Positions 43,668 through 48,559 of a stretch of DNA of 64,000 nt are shown piece by piece. The stretch spans positions 3,667,501 to 3,731,500 of the forward strand of contig NZ_LT629771.1 in NCBI RefSeq assembly GCF_900105175.1, given 5' to 3'. The stretch comes from Jiangella sp. DSM 45060 (GTDB lineage: Bacteria; Actinomycetota; Actinomycetes; Jiangellales; Jiangellaceae). The position numbers were made by a program, and so were the translations under genes. The notes beneath the pieces are model-generated. The model had not been told where the DNA came from, searched no databases, and was given only the letters and a program-made list of their open reading frames with translations. Position 1 is the stretch's first letter. Each line of letters starts with the position of its first letter.

Positions 43668-43739
43668 ACTCTAAGCCGCCGTGCCCACGATACGGATGGC
43701 CGGTTGCTTTCCCATAAGACCCATAGGAAATTGGGTGAC

Positions 43740-43811
43740 GTGCCCAGGCTGCTGCTCACCCAGCGACGCGCCGTCGATCTGATGCGCGTCGCCAGCCAGC
43801 TCTGTCACTGA
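43740..43811 (+). CDS. Leader peptide of the sulfur-uptake locus
   Basis: A 23-codon frame, GTG to TGA. The peptide contains LLLTQRRAVDLMRVASQLC and ends with His. This fits the pattern of short actinobacterial leader peptides found before sulfur and cysteine genes, with an LL start, an R-x-x-VDL-x-R core and a C-terminal S-x-x-C. Upstream lies CATAGGAAATTGGGTGAC, with AGGA as a weak ribosome-binding site. The stop is followed within 4 bases by a long inverted repeat. Together they look like an attenuator that senses cysteine or sulfur supply. The assignment rests on pattern recognition and position. Confidence 0.7.
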   Translation: MPRLLLTQRRAVDLMRVASQLCH

Positions 43812-43814
43812 CCC

Positions 43815-43875
43815 GGTCCGCCGGCCGACCAGCCGGCCCGCCAGGCAGACCAGCCGACGGGACGGCCGGCGGACC
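43815..43875 (+). promoter_or_regulatory. Attenuator-like inverted repeat
   Basis: GGTCCGCCGGCCG (43815-43827) and CGGCCGGCGGACC (43863-43875) form a perfect 13-bp stem around a 35-base loop, directly after the leader-peptide stop. The loop and right flank repeat GACCAGCCG-type segments (43828, 43849, 43872), which permit alternative pairings. This arrangement would let ribosome position on the leader peptide choose between structures. Confidence 0.6.
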
Positions 43876-43952
43876 AGCCGGCGCACCCCATCGCCCACCC
43901 CGCGATCCCCATCCACCGGCCGCACCCCGGCCACCTTTCCCCGGAGCCGTCC

Positions 43953-44309
43953 ATGCCCCTCGCCATCGCACCCCCGCCACCGCCCCTCGACGCGCCCGAG
44001 CCGTCGCCGCTGGGCCTGGTCGTCTTCGTCGAGGTCGACGATGCGCTGGCCGGCCGGTCCGGCGCCACCGTCGTCGTCGACGGCCGGGCCGAGGCGCTGA
44101 CGTTCCGCGAGTTCGAGCCGCTCGCCTACCTGATCGAGAACCGGCGCCGCGCGCTCACCCGGCTCGAGCTGATCGGCCAGGTCTGGCCGCTGGGCACGCG
44201 GGCCGGCAGCCGCACCGTCGACGTCCACATCAGGCGGCTGCGGGTGAAGCTCGGCCGGCACGGACGGCGGATCCGCACGCTCCGTGGCCACGGCTGCCGG
44301 CTGGACTGA
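43953..44309 (+). CDS. Orphan winged-helix (OmpR/PhoB-type) DNA-binding protein
   Basis: A 118-residue protein consisting of a short Pro-rich start, a strand (LGLVVFVEVDDAL) and a complete trans_reg_C winged helix: VVVDGRAEALTFREFEPLAYLIENRRRALTRLELIGQVW, then SRTVDVHIRRLRVKLG and IRTLRGHGCRLD. There is no receiver domain and no kinase nearby, so it is not a normal two-component regulator. GGAG lies 8 bases before the ATG. It lies between the leader peptide and the sulfate-transport operon, which suggests a sulfur-related regulator. Confidence 0.88.
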   Translation: MPLAIAPPPPPLDAPEPSPLGLVVFVEVDDALAGRSGATVVVDGRAEALTFREFEPLAYLIENRRRALTRLELIGQVWPLGTRAGSRTVDVHIRRLRVKLGRHGRRIRTLRGHGCRLD

Positions 44310-44320
44310 CCACTATCCGG

Positions 44321-44349
44321 GCAATTCTCGCTCAGCATGCGAGACTTGC
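44321..44349 (+). terminator. Weak hairpin after the winged-helix gene
   Basis: GCAA-tt-CTCGC-tcagcat-GCGAG-ac-TTGC folds into two stacked stems 12 bp after the stop. It could partly end the winged-helix transcript before the next promoter. Confidence 0.4.
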
Positions 44350-44353
44350 TCTA

Positions 44354-44384
44354 TTGTCCACTAATCCACCGTGATTACTATGAT
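44354..44384 (+). promoter_or_regulatory. Promoter of the sulfate ABC operon with operator in the spacer
   Basis: TTGTCC (44354-44359) and TATGAT (44379-44384) form a -35/-10 pair with a 19-bp spacer, 29 bp before the binding-protein ATG. Within the spacer lies TAATC-CACCGT-GATTA (44362-44377), a perfect inverted repeat placed where a bound regulator would block or remodel the promoter. Confidence 0.55.
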
Positions 44385-44412: not shown

Positions 44413-45444
44413 ATGAGCACCCGAACCAGAGCAGCAGTCACCACGTTCGTCCTGGTCGGCGGGCTGGCACTGGCGGCCTGCGGCGGCGACGACACCGACG
44501 CGGCATCGGGCGAGGAGACGACGCTGTCGATCGTGGGCTTCGCGGTCCCCGAAGCGGCCAACGTCGCCATCGCCGAGGAGTGGAGCCAGACCGACGAGGG
44601 CGCCGGCGTGCGCTTCCGCAGCTCCTACGGCGCGTCCGGCGACCAGAGCCGGGCGGTCGAGTCCGGCCTCGAAGCCGACTACGTCCACTTCTCCGTCACC
44701 AGCGACGTCACCCGGCTGGTCGACGCCGGCCTGGTGGACGAGACCTGGGACGACGGCCCGACGAAGGGCGTGGTGTCGTCGTCGGTGGTCGTGCTGGCGG
44801 TCCGGCCCGGCAACCCGGAGAACATCCAGGACTGGGACGACATCGTGCAGCCGAGCGTCGAGATCGTCACGCCGAACCCGGCGTCGTCCGGCGCCGCCCG
44901 CTGGAACGCGCTGGCCGCCTGGGGCCACGTCGCGGCGAACGGCGGCACCGACGCCGAGGCCGAGGAGTTCGTCCGCCAGGTGTTCGCGAACGTCGTCGCG
45001 CTGCCCAACAGCGGCCGCGACGCCACCACCAGCTTCCTCGGCGGCACCGGCGACGTGCTACTGGCCTACGAGAACGAGGCCATCCTCGCCACCCAGAACG
45101 GCGAGGAGCTGGACTGGGTCATCCCCGAGACCACCCTCCTCATCGAGAACCCGGGCGCGGTGCTCAGCGACGCCGACCCGAAGGCGCAGGAGTGGCTGGA
45201 CTTCGTGCTCAGCGAGGCCGGCCAGCGCCAGTTCGCGCTGAAGGGCTTCCGGCCGGTCATCGACGGCGTCGACACCAGCGGCGTCGAGGGCGCACTGGAC
45301 CCGGACGACCCGTTCCCGGCGCCCGCGCACCTGCTCACCGTCGAGAACGACTTCGAGAGCTGGAGCGCGCTGTCGGACAAGTTCTTCGACGAGGAGAACG
45401 GCATCATCACCCGGATCATCGCCGAGTCCGGGAAGGCGCAGTGA
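44413..45444 (+). CDS. Sulfate ABC transporter substrate-binding lipoprotein
   Basis: A 343-residue binding protein of the sulfate/thiosulfate (Sbp/CysP) family. The signal peptide ends in a lipobox, GGLALAACGG. Family features in the mature part are LSIVGFAVPEAANVAIAEEW, FRSSYGASGDQSRAVESGLEADYVHFS near residue 75, GNPENIQDWDDIVQPSVEIVTPNPASSGAARWN near residue 140 and GDVLLAYENEAIL near 215. ATG at 44413 is used, since upstream in-frame starts fall within the promoter. The stop overlaps the next gene. Confidence 0.95.
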   Translation: MSTRTRAAVTTFVLVGGLALAACGGDDTDAASGEETTLSIVGFAVPEAANVAIAEEWSQTDEGAGVRFRSSYGASGDQSRAVESGLEADYVHFSVTSDVTRLVDAGLVDETWDDGPTKGVVSSSVVVLAVRPGNPENIQDWDDIVQPSVEIVTPNPASSGAARWNALAAWGHVAANGGTDAEAEEFVRQVFANVVALPNSGRDATTSFLGGTGDVLLAYENEAILATQNGEELDWVIPETTLLIENPGAVLSDADPKAQEWLDFVLSEAGQRQFALKGFRPVIDGVDTSGVEGALDPDDPFPAPAHLLTVENDFESWSALSDKFFDEENGIITRIIAESGKAQ

Positions 45445-46235
45445 GCTCAGTGCGGCTCACCCGCGGGTCCGGGCTGGGGCTGGGCGTCGCCCTGCTCTGG
45501 TTCAGCCTGCTGGTGCTGATCCCGCTGGCGGCGGTCGTCGCGACGGCCGCCGCCGGCGGGTGGGACGGGTTCTGGCGGGCGGTGACGAACGAGCAGACGG
45601 CCGCGGCGATCCGGCTCACGGTCGGGACGGCGCTGCTCGTCACCGTCGTGAACGTGGTGATGGGGACCCTGATCGCGTGGGTCCTGGTGCGCGACCGGTT
45701 CCCCGGGCAGCGGGCGCTCGAGGTGCTCATCGACGTCCCGTTCGCGCTGCCGACGATCGTGGCCGGGCTGGTGCTGCTGTCGCTGTACGGGCCGGACAGC
45801 CCGCTCGGCCTGGACGTCGCCAACACCCGGGCCGCGGTGTTCCTGGCCTTCTTGTTCGTGACGCTGCCGTTCGTGGTCCGGACGGTGCAGCCGGTGCTGG
45901 CCGACCTGGACCGGGAGGTCGAGGAGGCCGCGGCGTCGCTGGGCGCGTCGCGGCTCACGACGTTCCGCCGGATCATCCTGCCGGCGCTGGCCCCGGCCAT
46001 CGCGGCCGGCGCGGCGCTCTCGTTCGCCCGCGGCGTCAGCGAGTACGGCTCGCTGGTGCTGCTGTCGGGCAACCTGCCGCTGCGGACGGAGGTGACGTCG
46101 GTGCGCATCCTCAGCAGCATCGAGAACGACAACCTCGCCAACGCGGCGGCGGTGGCGACGGTGCTGCTGGCGGTCTCGTTCGCGGTGATCGTCGCGCTCG
46201 ACGTCATCCAGCGCCGGGTGGGACGCCGTGGGTAG
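45441..46235 (+). CDS. cysT: Sulfate ABC transporter permease CysT
   Basis: A 264-residue permease with six hydrophobic helices. It shows LRLTVGTAL-like AIRLTVGTALLVTVVNVVMGTLIAWVLVRDRFPG, DVPFALPTIVAGLVLLSLYGPDSPLG, and the EAA loop EEAAASLGASRLTTFRRIILPAL near residue 170. GVSEYGSLVLLSGNLPLRTEVTSVRI is characteristic of CysT/CysU. GTG at 45441 overlaps the upstream stop as GTGA and has GGGAAGG before it. Works with CysW in the sulfate channel. Confidence 0.95.
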   Translation: MSSVRLTRGSGLGLGVALLWFSLLVLIPLAAVVATAAAGGWDGFWRAVTNEQTAAAIRLTVGTALLVTVVNVVMGTLIAWVLVRDRFPGQRALEVLIDVPFALPTIVAGLVLLSLYGPDSPLGLDVANTRAAVFLAFLFVTLPFVVRTVQPVLADLDREVEEAAASLGASRLTTFRRIILPALAPAIAAGAALSFARGVSEYGSLVLLSGNLPLRTEVTSVRILSSIENDNLANAAAVATVLLAVSFAVIVALDVIQRRVGRRG

Positions 46236-47040
46236 GGGCCGCGGGCCCGGCCGGTGGGTCGCCCGCGCCGTCGTGACGGCGTACCTGGTGCTGCTGGTCG
46301 CGTGGCCGCTGTGGCTGGTCGCGCAGCACACCTTCGCCGACGGCCTCGACAGCCTGCGCGGCATCCTCGACGACCCGGACGTCGCGCACGCGCTGCGGCT
46401 CACCGTCGTCGTCGCGGTCGTCTCGGTCGTGCTGAACACGGTGTTCGGCGTCGGCATCTCGCTGCTCGTCGTGCGGTACGCGTTCCCCGGGAAGCGGCTG
46501 CTCAACGCGCTGCTGGACGTGCCGCTGTCGGTGTCGCCGATCGTGGTCGGGCTGGCGCTGGTGCTGGTGTACGGAGGGCGGTCCGGCTGGTTCGGGCCGG
46601 CGTTGGAGTCCGCCGGGCTGCAGGTGGTCTTCGCCACCCCGGGCATCGTGCTGGCGACGACGTTCGTGGCGTTGCCGCTGGTGATCCGCGAGGTGGTGCC
46701 CGTCCTCGAGGAGATCGGCACCGAGCAGGAGCAGGCGGCGCAGAGCCTCGGCGCGACGGCCGCGCAGACGTTCCGCCGCATCACGCTGCCGGCGATCCGC
46801 TGGGGCGTCACGTACGGCGTGGTGCTCAGCCTGGCGCGGTCGCTGGGCGAGTTCGGCGCCGTCAAGGTCGTCTCCGGCAACGTCCTCGGCGAGACCCGCA
46901 CCGCCACGCTCGTCGTCGAGGAGAAGTACCTGAACTTCGACCAGGGCGGCGCCTACGCCACCGCGTTCCTGCTCGCGCTGGTCGCCGTCGCCTGCATCGT
47001 CGTCGTCTCGATCGTCCGGCCGAAGGAGGAACCCCGTTGA
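46228..47040 (+). CDS. cysW: Sulfate ABC transporter permease CysW
   Basis: A 270-residue partner permease. Features: [58 protein letters not shown], the EAA loop [25 protein letters not shown] near residue 165, and [38 protein letters not shown], which is diagnostic for CysW. Start is GTG at 46228, overlapping cysT by 8 bases. Its stop overlaps the cysA start. Confidence 0.95.
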
Positions 47041-48038
47041 GCATCGAGATCACCGGCGTGACCAAGCGCTTCGGCGACTTCGTCGCGCTCGAGGACGTCT
47101 CCGTCAGCATCCCGTCCGGGCAGCTCACCGCGCTGCTCGGCCCGTCGGGCGGCGGCAAGTCGACGCTGCTGCGGATCATCGCCGGGCTGGAGTACGCCGA
47201 CGCCGGCACCGTCGGCATCGAGGGCCTGGACGCCACCGCGCTGCCGGCCCGCAAGCGCGGCGTCGGCTTCGTCTTCCAGCACTACGCCGCGTTCAAGCAC
47301 CTCACGGTGCGGCGCAACATCGCCTTCGGCCTGGAGATCCGCAAGCGGCCGAAGGACGAGATCCGCCACCGGGTGGACGAGCTGCTGGCGCTGGTGCACC
47401 TGGAGCAGTTCGCCGAGCGGCTGCCGGCCCAGCTGTCCGGCGGCCAGCGCCAGCGCATGGCGCTGGCCCGCGCGCTCGCCGTCGAGCCGAAGGTGCTGCT
47501 GCTGGACGAGCCGTTCGGCGCGCTGGACGCGAAGGTCCGCAAGGAGCTGCGCGAATGGCTGCGCCGGCTGCACGACGAGGTGCACGTCACCACCGTCTTC
47601 GTCACGCACGACCAGGAGGAGGCGCTGGAGGTGGCGGACGAGATCGTCGTGGTCAACGAGGGCCGGGTGGAGCAGATCGGCACGCCGGACCAGCTCTACG
47701 ACGAGCCGGCCAACGACTTCGTCATGCGCTTCCTCGGGCCGGTGACGCAGCTGGGCGACCTGCTGGTCCGTCCGCACGACGTCGCGCTGGCGCCGGGCGC
47801 GGACGACCCGGACGCGGTCGCCGGACGGGTCGCGCGGGTGGTGCGCGTCGGGTTCGAGGTGCGGGTCGAGGTCAGCACCGGCGAGCAGGTCGTGCTGGCC
47901 ACCCTGACCCGCACCGAGTTCCTGCGCCTGGGTGTCGGCGTCGGCGCGACGGTGTCCGTGCGGGTGGTGCCCGGCGCGCCCGTCGTCCCGGTGCGGGGTT
48001 CTGTCGTTCGATCGGGTCTGGAGGTTCCCGCGAGATGA
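47037..48038 (+). CDS. cysA: Sulfate ABC transporter ATP-binding protein
   Basis: A 333-residue importer ATPase. Walker [10 protein letters not shown] near residue 36, Q-loop VFQHYAAF near 81, signature [19 protein letters not shown] near 133, Walker [13 protein letters not shown] near 156 and H-loop [11 protein letters not shown] near 190. The C-terminal 90 residues form a TOBE-like regulatory domain. The start is a TTG at 47037, overlapping the cysW stop, with GAAGGAGGA upstream. It ends with an ATGA overlap with the FMN reductase gene. Confidence 0.96.
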
Positions 48039-48559
48039 GCATCGTGACAGTGGTCGGCAACCCGCGGCCGGGGTCGCGCACGCTGGGGGTGGCGACGGCG
48101 CTGTCGTCGGCGGTCGCCGCCCGTGCCGGTCTGCCGGACGGTCCGGTCTTCGACCTGGCCGGGTTCGGCGGGCAATGGCTGGGCGACCTCGCGTCCGACG
48201 GTGAGTCGGCGCTCGCCGCCGCCGCCGAGGCGTCGGTGCTGGTCGTGGCCACGCCGACGTACAAGGCCAGCTACACCGGGCTGCTCAAGGCGTTCCTCGA
48301 CCGGCTGCCCGGTGGGGCGTTGCGCGGAACCGTCGCCGTGCCGGTGACGGTGGCCGCGGCGCCCACGCACCGGTTCGTCGCCGACCTGCAGCTGCGCCCC
48401 GTCCTCGCCGAGCTGGGCGCCACCCTGCCGGTGCCGTCGTTCGTGGTGGAGGAGCGGGAGCTGCCGGACCTGCTGGCGCTGGCCGAGCGCTGGGCCGCCG
48501 GCCACGGCGCCGTCCTCACCGCGACGGCGAGCGCGCTGGCCGCTGCCGAGGCGGCCTGA
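48035..48559 (+). CDS. NADPH-dependent FMN reductase
   Basis: A 174-residue flavodoxin-fold reductase: [24 protein letters not shown] at the start (phosphate loop), [31 protein letters not shown] near residue 67, and [28 protein letters not shown]. It resembles the SsuE/MsuE group, which feeds FMNH2 to sulfonate monooxygenases. No such monooxygenase is in the window. ATG at 48035 overlaps cysA, so it belongs to the sulfate operon. Its end overlaps the convergent LuxR-type gene by 44 bp. Confidence 0.93.

Follow-up and report, generated by a model that had tools for sequence, protein, structure and literature searches.

A known actinobacterial leader peptide in a genus-restricted arrangement before a winged-helix regulator gene, eroded in Jiangella sp. 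DSM 45060

Upstream of the sulfate transporter operon in a 64,000-nucleotide stretch of the Jiangella sp. DSM 45060 genome (the window), we found a leader peptide gene that belongs to a known family and stands in a new arrangement, one that is restricted to the genus and eroded in the window's own genome. The leader precedes a winged-helix regulator gene. The mechanism we think most likely is translational attenuation, in which the stop codon region of the leader pairs with the Shine-Dalgarno region of the regulator gene; that leader and winged-helix gene form such an attenuator in the genus, eroded in the window's genome, we hold to have about an even chance of being right. When no ribosome is near the leader end, the stop codon and the next six bases would pair with the Shine-Dalgarno region and the gene would be shut. 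One codon separates the single Cys codon of the leader from its stop, and a ribosome slowed at that Cys codon would cover the stop-region arm and free the Shine-Dalgarno sequence, so that the level of the winged-helix protein would rise when cysteine is scarce. That such pairing operates in living cells, with cysteine as the signal and with this direction of response, is our inference. If true, the reading extends the targets of cysteine-type leaders to a regulator gene, and a stop codon set against a Shine-Dalgarno sequence is a simple, testable RNA element. All features below are on the forward strand and are numbered by window position.

The leader gene (43740..43811) has 23 codons, a GTG start, and the product VPRLLLTQRRAVDLMRVASQLCH. 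The first-pass annotation had picked out this frame from the sequence alone, and profile matching and conservation bear it out. The peptide scores 30.1 bits against the NCBIfam model NF042934 ("putative leader peptide"), above the curated cut-off of 27; in a six-frame search the score was 27.9 bits. A further model, NF042933 (Ms5788A family Cys-rich leader peptide), aligns to leader residues 4-22 with 31.8 bits, below its curated cut-off of 45; this family is reportedly linked to the work of Canestrari. Of 246 genomes sampled from the class, 170 had an NF042934 match at E ≤ 0.001 (150 of 246 above the cut-off), as against none of 14 control genomes; at a relaxed E ≤ 1, matches appeared in six of the 14 control genomes, none of them above the cut-off. 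Because of this score and the class-wide occurrence, the leader is assigned to a widespread, already described actinobacterial family. Family membership and the one Cys codon together suggest that it senses cysteine.

Orthologues of the sulfate-binding protein gene sbp were sought in 22 genomes of the family at E ≤ 1e-30; eight of the 12 that belong to the genus had one, and the remaining 10 had none. These eight sbp-bearing congeners, which include the window's genome (G000), are the basis of the comparisons that follow. The leader lies upstream of sbp in all eight, almost letter for letter. Its start codon is GTG in seven and ATG in G012, where residue 3 is E instead of R; the final residue is either H or R, and each leader has a single Cys codon (TGT), with no run of consecutive Cys codons in any of the eight. 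Genome pairs differ by an average of 0.75 synonymous codons over 22 leader codons, against 2.45 in 22-codon windows of sbp, and just one of 278 such sbp windows is as low as the leader. Because synonymous changes are rare there, we consider the leader to be constrained at both the RNA and the peptide level. A predicted 9-bp hairpin within the leader frame (43763..43792, arms GCGACGCGC and GCGCGTCGC) is part of the predicted fold in all eight congeners, and both of the base changes observed in the arms leave G-U pairs. The alignment also shows a conserved block 5′ of the leader (43694..43739, GGATGGCCGGTTGCTTTCCCA...TAGGAAATT), which may carry putative promoter signals, ribosome-site signals or both; a scan of this block for the sigma-70 consensus gave no match.

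An overlapping GTG frame (43735-43782) crosses the leader in a different reading frame and would encode a short peptide rich in Cys. It was dropped as a candidate, its start codon being GGG in two of the eight congeners (G005 and G006).

The pairing itself is clearest in five relatives (G005, G013, G006, G007 and G014), where the leader stop plus the next six bases read TGACTCCCG, the exact complement of CGGGAGTCA, a segment that contains the winged-helix Shine-Dalgarno sequence and ends 2-3 bases ahead of the winged-helix ATG. The anti-Shine-Dalgarno arm of G010 is TGACCCGGG, and the helix is kept there with changed letters and one bulge. Pairing is thus predicted in six of the eight congeners, across a separating sequence that varies among them. 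The exceptions are G012 and the window's genome; in the latter the stop codon region (43809..43817) reads TGACCCGGT and no longer matches the Shine-Dalgarno region (43941..43949), which is CCGGAGCCG here. A regulator under leader control had been proposed by the first-pass annotation, and the family match and the predicted RNA pairing in six of eight congeners speak for it, but the pairing is lost in the very genome for which it was proposed.

Two calculations separate the six from the two. The stop/Shine-Dalgarno duplex energy was equalled or beaten, per 1000 dinucleotide shuffles, by 0 in G007 and G006, by 1 in G005, G013 and G014 and by 6 in G010, against 171 in the window's genome and 77 in G012; these counts are optimistic because the shuffle and folding tests were chosen after the pairing had been noticed, and the six pairing genomes are close kin from one genus. 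Masking a ribosome footprint at the Cys codon raised the predicted openness of the Shine-Dalgarno sequence from 0.12 to 0.33 in G005, 0.12 to 0.46 in G013, 0.25 to 0.53 in G007, 0.27 to 0.42 in G014, 0.16 to 0.39 in G006 and 0.12 to 0.47 in G010. There was no rise in the window's genome (0.51 to 0.50) or in G012 (0.44 to 0.41).

As a general rule for NF042934 leaders the pairing was rejected: over 25 loci the leaders' own pairs did not outperform permuted ones (p 0.28), and over the 17 loci outside the genus p was 0.70. The pool for this test was 59 leader loci (L001, L003, L247-L303), from which 7 shorter than 3 kb and 2 that offered no candidate start were dropped to leave 50. The 25 were hand-picked from these, dropping same-genus repeats, gaps over 400 nt and genus loci with the start assigned to sbp, and start codons were chosen by script or by eye.

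The winged-helix gene (43953..44309) encodes 118 amino acids and matches Pfam PF00486 (OmpR/PhoB Trans_reg_C) with 62.7 bits, above the gathering score of 26.2. No Pfam receiver domain was matched in this protein or in the full-length protein of congener G007, in agreement with the first-pass description of a winged-helix gene without a receiver. The window's protein is without part of an N-terminal region that is present in G007, G010 and G014; in G005, G013 and G006 the N-terminal region is absent and the winged helix is retained. The domain dN/dS is 0.33 over 21 pairs (sbp, 0.21 over 28 pairs), which indicates selection on the domain across the genus, and the stretch TVDVHIRRLRVKL is identical in seven winged-helix proteins. 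A scan of contigs with the winged-helix protein as query gave relatives that share 37-56% identity and belong mostly to other phyla. The four genus genomes in which no sbp match was found at E ≤ 1e-30 also gave no close winged-helix orthologue.

In the window's genome the gene appears, from its sequence, to have decayed. Its PF00486 score is the lowest, the six orthologues scoring 78.2-87.7 bits, and P replaces L in EFELLAYL and C replaces Y in GHGYRLD. Against G005, its nearest relative by sbp, the winged-helix pair has dN 0.049 and dS 0.079, a high ratio that rests on few changes. In G012 an in-frame deletion has removed nearly all of the winged helix and left a 63-codon frame. Loss of the RNA helix and damage to the regulator gene coincide, both occurring in the window's genome and G012 and in no other of the eight congeners; this provides a natural comparison of six congeners with the pairing and two without, the regulator gene being damaged in exactly those two. 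The switch in the window's genome probably works poorly or not at all, because the pairing is lost, the segment with the stem described below is present and the winged-helix gene shows decay. The leader is still conserved in the window's genome and in G012, where its proposed target is damaged, and it may have another role.

The most conspicuous RNA feature of the window's genome is a perfect 13-bp inverted repeat with a 35-nt loop (43815..43875; arms 43815-43827 and 43863-43875), which begins at the fourth base after the leader stop and sits within a larger 23-nt, 87% inverted pair. Both the repeat and its repeated segments were present as first described: GACCAGCCG occurs three times in 43827-43880, and 12 times in the whole window against 2.34 expected (about five times expectation). 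The region 43735-43953 folds better than its own shuffles (z -3.42). Among the eight congeners this repeat was found in the window's genome only; it lies in a G+C-rich segment absent from the other seven, whose longest perfect repeat in the same spacer is 5-6 bases. It looks like a lineage-specific expansion. Rfam 15 gave no match at gathering score in the 64,000 bases of the window. The case illustrates that a hairpin can be striking in one genome without being the functional one.

The operon order given in the first-pass annotation, sbp-cysT-cysW-cysA-FMN reductase, is backed by family matches throughout. The sulfate ABC transporter substrate-binding protein gene sbp (44413..45444, ATG at 44413) matches TIGR00971 with 172 bits, and is followed by the permease genes cysT (45441..46235; TIGR02139, 287.1 bits) and cysW (46228..47040; TIGR00969, 280.7 bits, above its cut-off of 240, the best match being TIGR02140 at 296.1 bits, under its cut-off of 329.1), the ATP-binding protein gene cysA (47037..48038; TIGR00968, 404.1 bits) and the FMN reductase gene (48035..48559; PF03358, 81.8 bits). 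In the alignment of the eight congeners a strongly conserved promoter/operator-like block precedes sbp (44350..44383), with TATTGT at 44352-44357, a palindrome TAATC-N6-GATTA at 44362-44377 and, in most congeners, ACTAAnCCACCGTGATTACTATGA at its end. The TATTGT part is TATTGT in four congeners, TATTGA or TATTGG in three and TATTAA in G012. A promoter had been placed before sbp, and the conserved block agrees with it, but the sigma-70 consensus scan upstream of sbp gave no match. A 20-base core of the block was searched for with a degenerate pattern at up to 2 mismatches, for which a backward control matched once in each of three genomes; it occurs once per genome in all eight sbp-bearing congeners, G012 included, each time at 0 mismatches, with no second copy seen in any genome and none found in the other four genus genomes. 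The operon has its own conserved promoter-like block, which probably does not depend on the winged helix.

We then compared 60 sbp regions from outside the genus, which were taken by hand from 59 of 108 matching genomes (L187 and L236 had little upstream DNA). None of the 60 fetched stretches held a winged-helix gene of this kind. A TWWWGTC-type element precedes sbp in 14 of the 60 at ≤1 mismatch against 0.42 expected, for a pattern that was written after the sequences had been viewed and a shuffle that preserved two-base blocks. Within the genus this pattern is present with 0 mismatches in four genomes, 1 in three and 2 in G012; the kinship of the outside elements is loose because the half of the block to which the pattern applies is the one that varies within the genus. 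A leader with the same motif preceded sbp in 1 of the 60 regions by a strict pattern. By eye, Cys-rich frame ends were seen before several other outside-genus sbp genes.

The original proposal had two layers, in which cysteine would control the winged-helix protein and this protein would in turn bind the promoter of sbp and control the transporter. Seven of the eight sbp-bearing congeners have this gene order and an intact winged-helix domain, which fits it, as do the joint absence of sbp and a close winged-helix orthologue from the other four genus genomes, the invariant stretch in seven proteins and the palindrome in the block before sbp; the departure of G012, which has lost the winged helix, furthest from TATTGT may also be counted for it. 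However, the 20-base core is intact in that same genome, a similar if loosely linked element precedes sbp in 14 of 60 outside regions that have no winged-helix gene, and the protein looks eroded in the window's genome. Conservation had been set as the check on the proposal, and leader and gene order came through it among the congeners, whereas the 13-bp stem was confined to one genome and the winged helix was lost in G012. Dedicated winged-helix control of sbp has some evidence against it, because most of the block is kept in G012 and no such gene was found in the 60 regions outside the genus; these data do not support the claim that this protein controls the transporter, and we regard the two-layer design as unlikely. 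Slightly less probable is a genus-specific two-step sulfur switch, in which the leader, with its own stop codon as the anti-Shine-Dalgarno arm, would gate translation of the orphan regulator by cysteine supply, the regulator would tune sulfate import, and RNA helix and regulator would be lost together species by species. We give more room, while still judging it improbable, to a reading in which the leader mainly governs read-through into the sulfate operon, where ribosomes on the leader and on the open frame after it would shield the transcript from Rho and the winged-helix frame would serve partly as a relay instead of a regulator gene. In its favour are G012, where a leader and an open frame of 63 codons are kept despite the in-frame deletion, and a leader stop-to-sbp distance that varies (393-813 nt among congeners) while the order stays the same in all eight; Rho-dependent attenuation has been suggested for actinobacterial cys leaders in PMC1262725. 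Yet a single deletion falls in frame by chance one time in three, the winged-helix domain is itself under purifying selection, and sbp has its own promoter-like block.

Two further readings concern the leader more directly. The first-pass annotation had called the 13-bp stem attenuator-like, and the leader ribosome could read it as an intrinsic terminator or antiterminator, as in trp-type attenuation. The position of the perfect repeat just behind the stop and the favourable fold of the region suit this, but the stem is absent from the other seven congeners, no terminator-like site was found by a scan that permits loops of 3-8 only, and the letters that follow the stem contain no T-run, so that the G+C-rich hairpin followed by a U-run of a trp-type attenuator is not seen after this leader. 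The stem was ruled out as a terminator or conserved attenuator, and we consider trp-type attenuation very improbable. Alternatively, the leader could be a nascent-chain arrest peptide, with LTQRRAVDLxRVA acting in the exit tunnel and sensing something besides charged tRNA-Cys. The motif is kept at the protein level in leaders before differing genes (the next genes being judged by eye) and this leader has only one Cys codon; on the other side, its nucleotide sequence is also unusually conserved, which RNA structure could explain. An arrest peptide strikes us as improbable.

Several described systems come close to this one. Passages of PMC9094748, PMC9031893 and PMC13236596, citing Canestrari 2020, describe mycobacterial short 5′ frames that end in Cys and act by cysteine-responsive attenuation of downstream translation. 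Our leader, too, is a short 5′ frame whose Cys lies close to the end; the mycobacterial frames have contiguous Cys codons in those accounts, in contrast to the single TGT here. Leaders with Cys have been predicted before cys operons or cbs in Mycobacterium spp., Propionibacterium acnes and Bifidobacterium longum, and the passages on them describe runs of Cys codons near the stop and no obvious terminators (PMC1262725); our leader has no Cys run, and those passages mention no winged-helix gene. PMC4633059 describes, ahead of cysA2, a small conserved frame that ends in Cys and is occupied by ribosomes. The leader resembles other NF042934 leaders in sequence family and length and in standing as a short frame ahead of other genes, and differs in that the gene after it is a winged-helix regulator. 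Among the literature titles, none had an arrangement of leader, winged-helix gene and sulfate transporter.

Trans_reg_C proteins without a receiver were also seen in other actinobacterial families (L142-L156). They share 38-43% identity over most of their length and resemble the full-length congener proteins in the N-terminal region and the winged helix. At 23 such homologue loci no convincing leader peptide and no adjacent sbp or cysT match was found, in a search where one pattern match had an internal stop, strands were hand-set, and L156 was short and mis-registered. In three of eight inspected loci (L142, L143 and L148) the neighbours resemble, by eye, a phosphoribosyltransferase gene and a MarR-type gene, and the N-terminal region of the L143 homologue had no Pfam match.

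The genus carries other leaders besides this one. A second one, also of this family (NIWGLTxRLHVDLRRQAS; L001 at 337526-337579 of the window's own genome, L278-L287 and L296) precedes a transporter-like gene (MSETAT... type, by eye) in all 12 genus genomes. A third, LTVRRSVDLLRTASALCR, scores 26 bits, just below the NF042934 cut-off, and precedes a lipoprotein-like gene by eye (L003 at 4363090-4363140 of the own genome, L299, L301 and L302). G010 has another leader, MPICPLLTQRRAVDLMRVASSLCR (L277, C89:243601-243657), which is on the opposite strand some 160 bases away from the first and points away from it.
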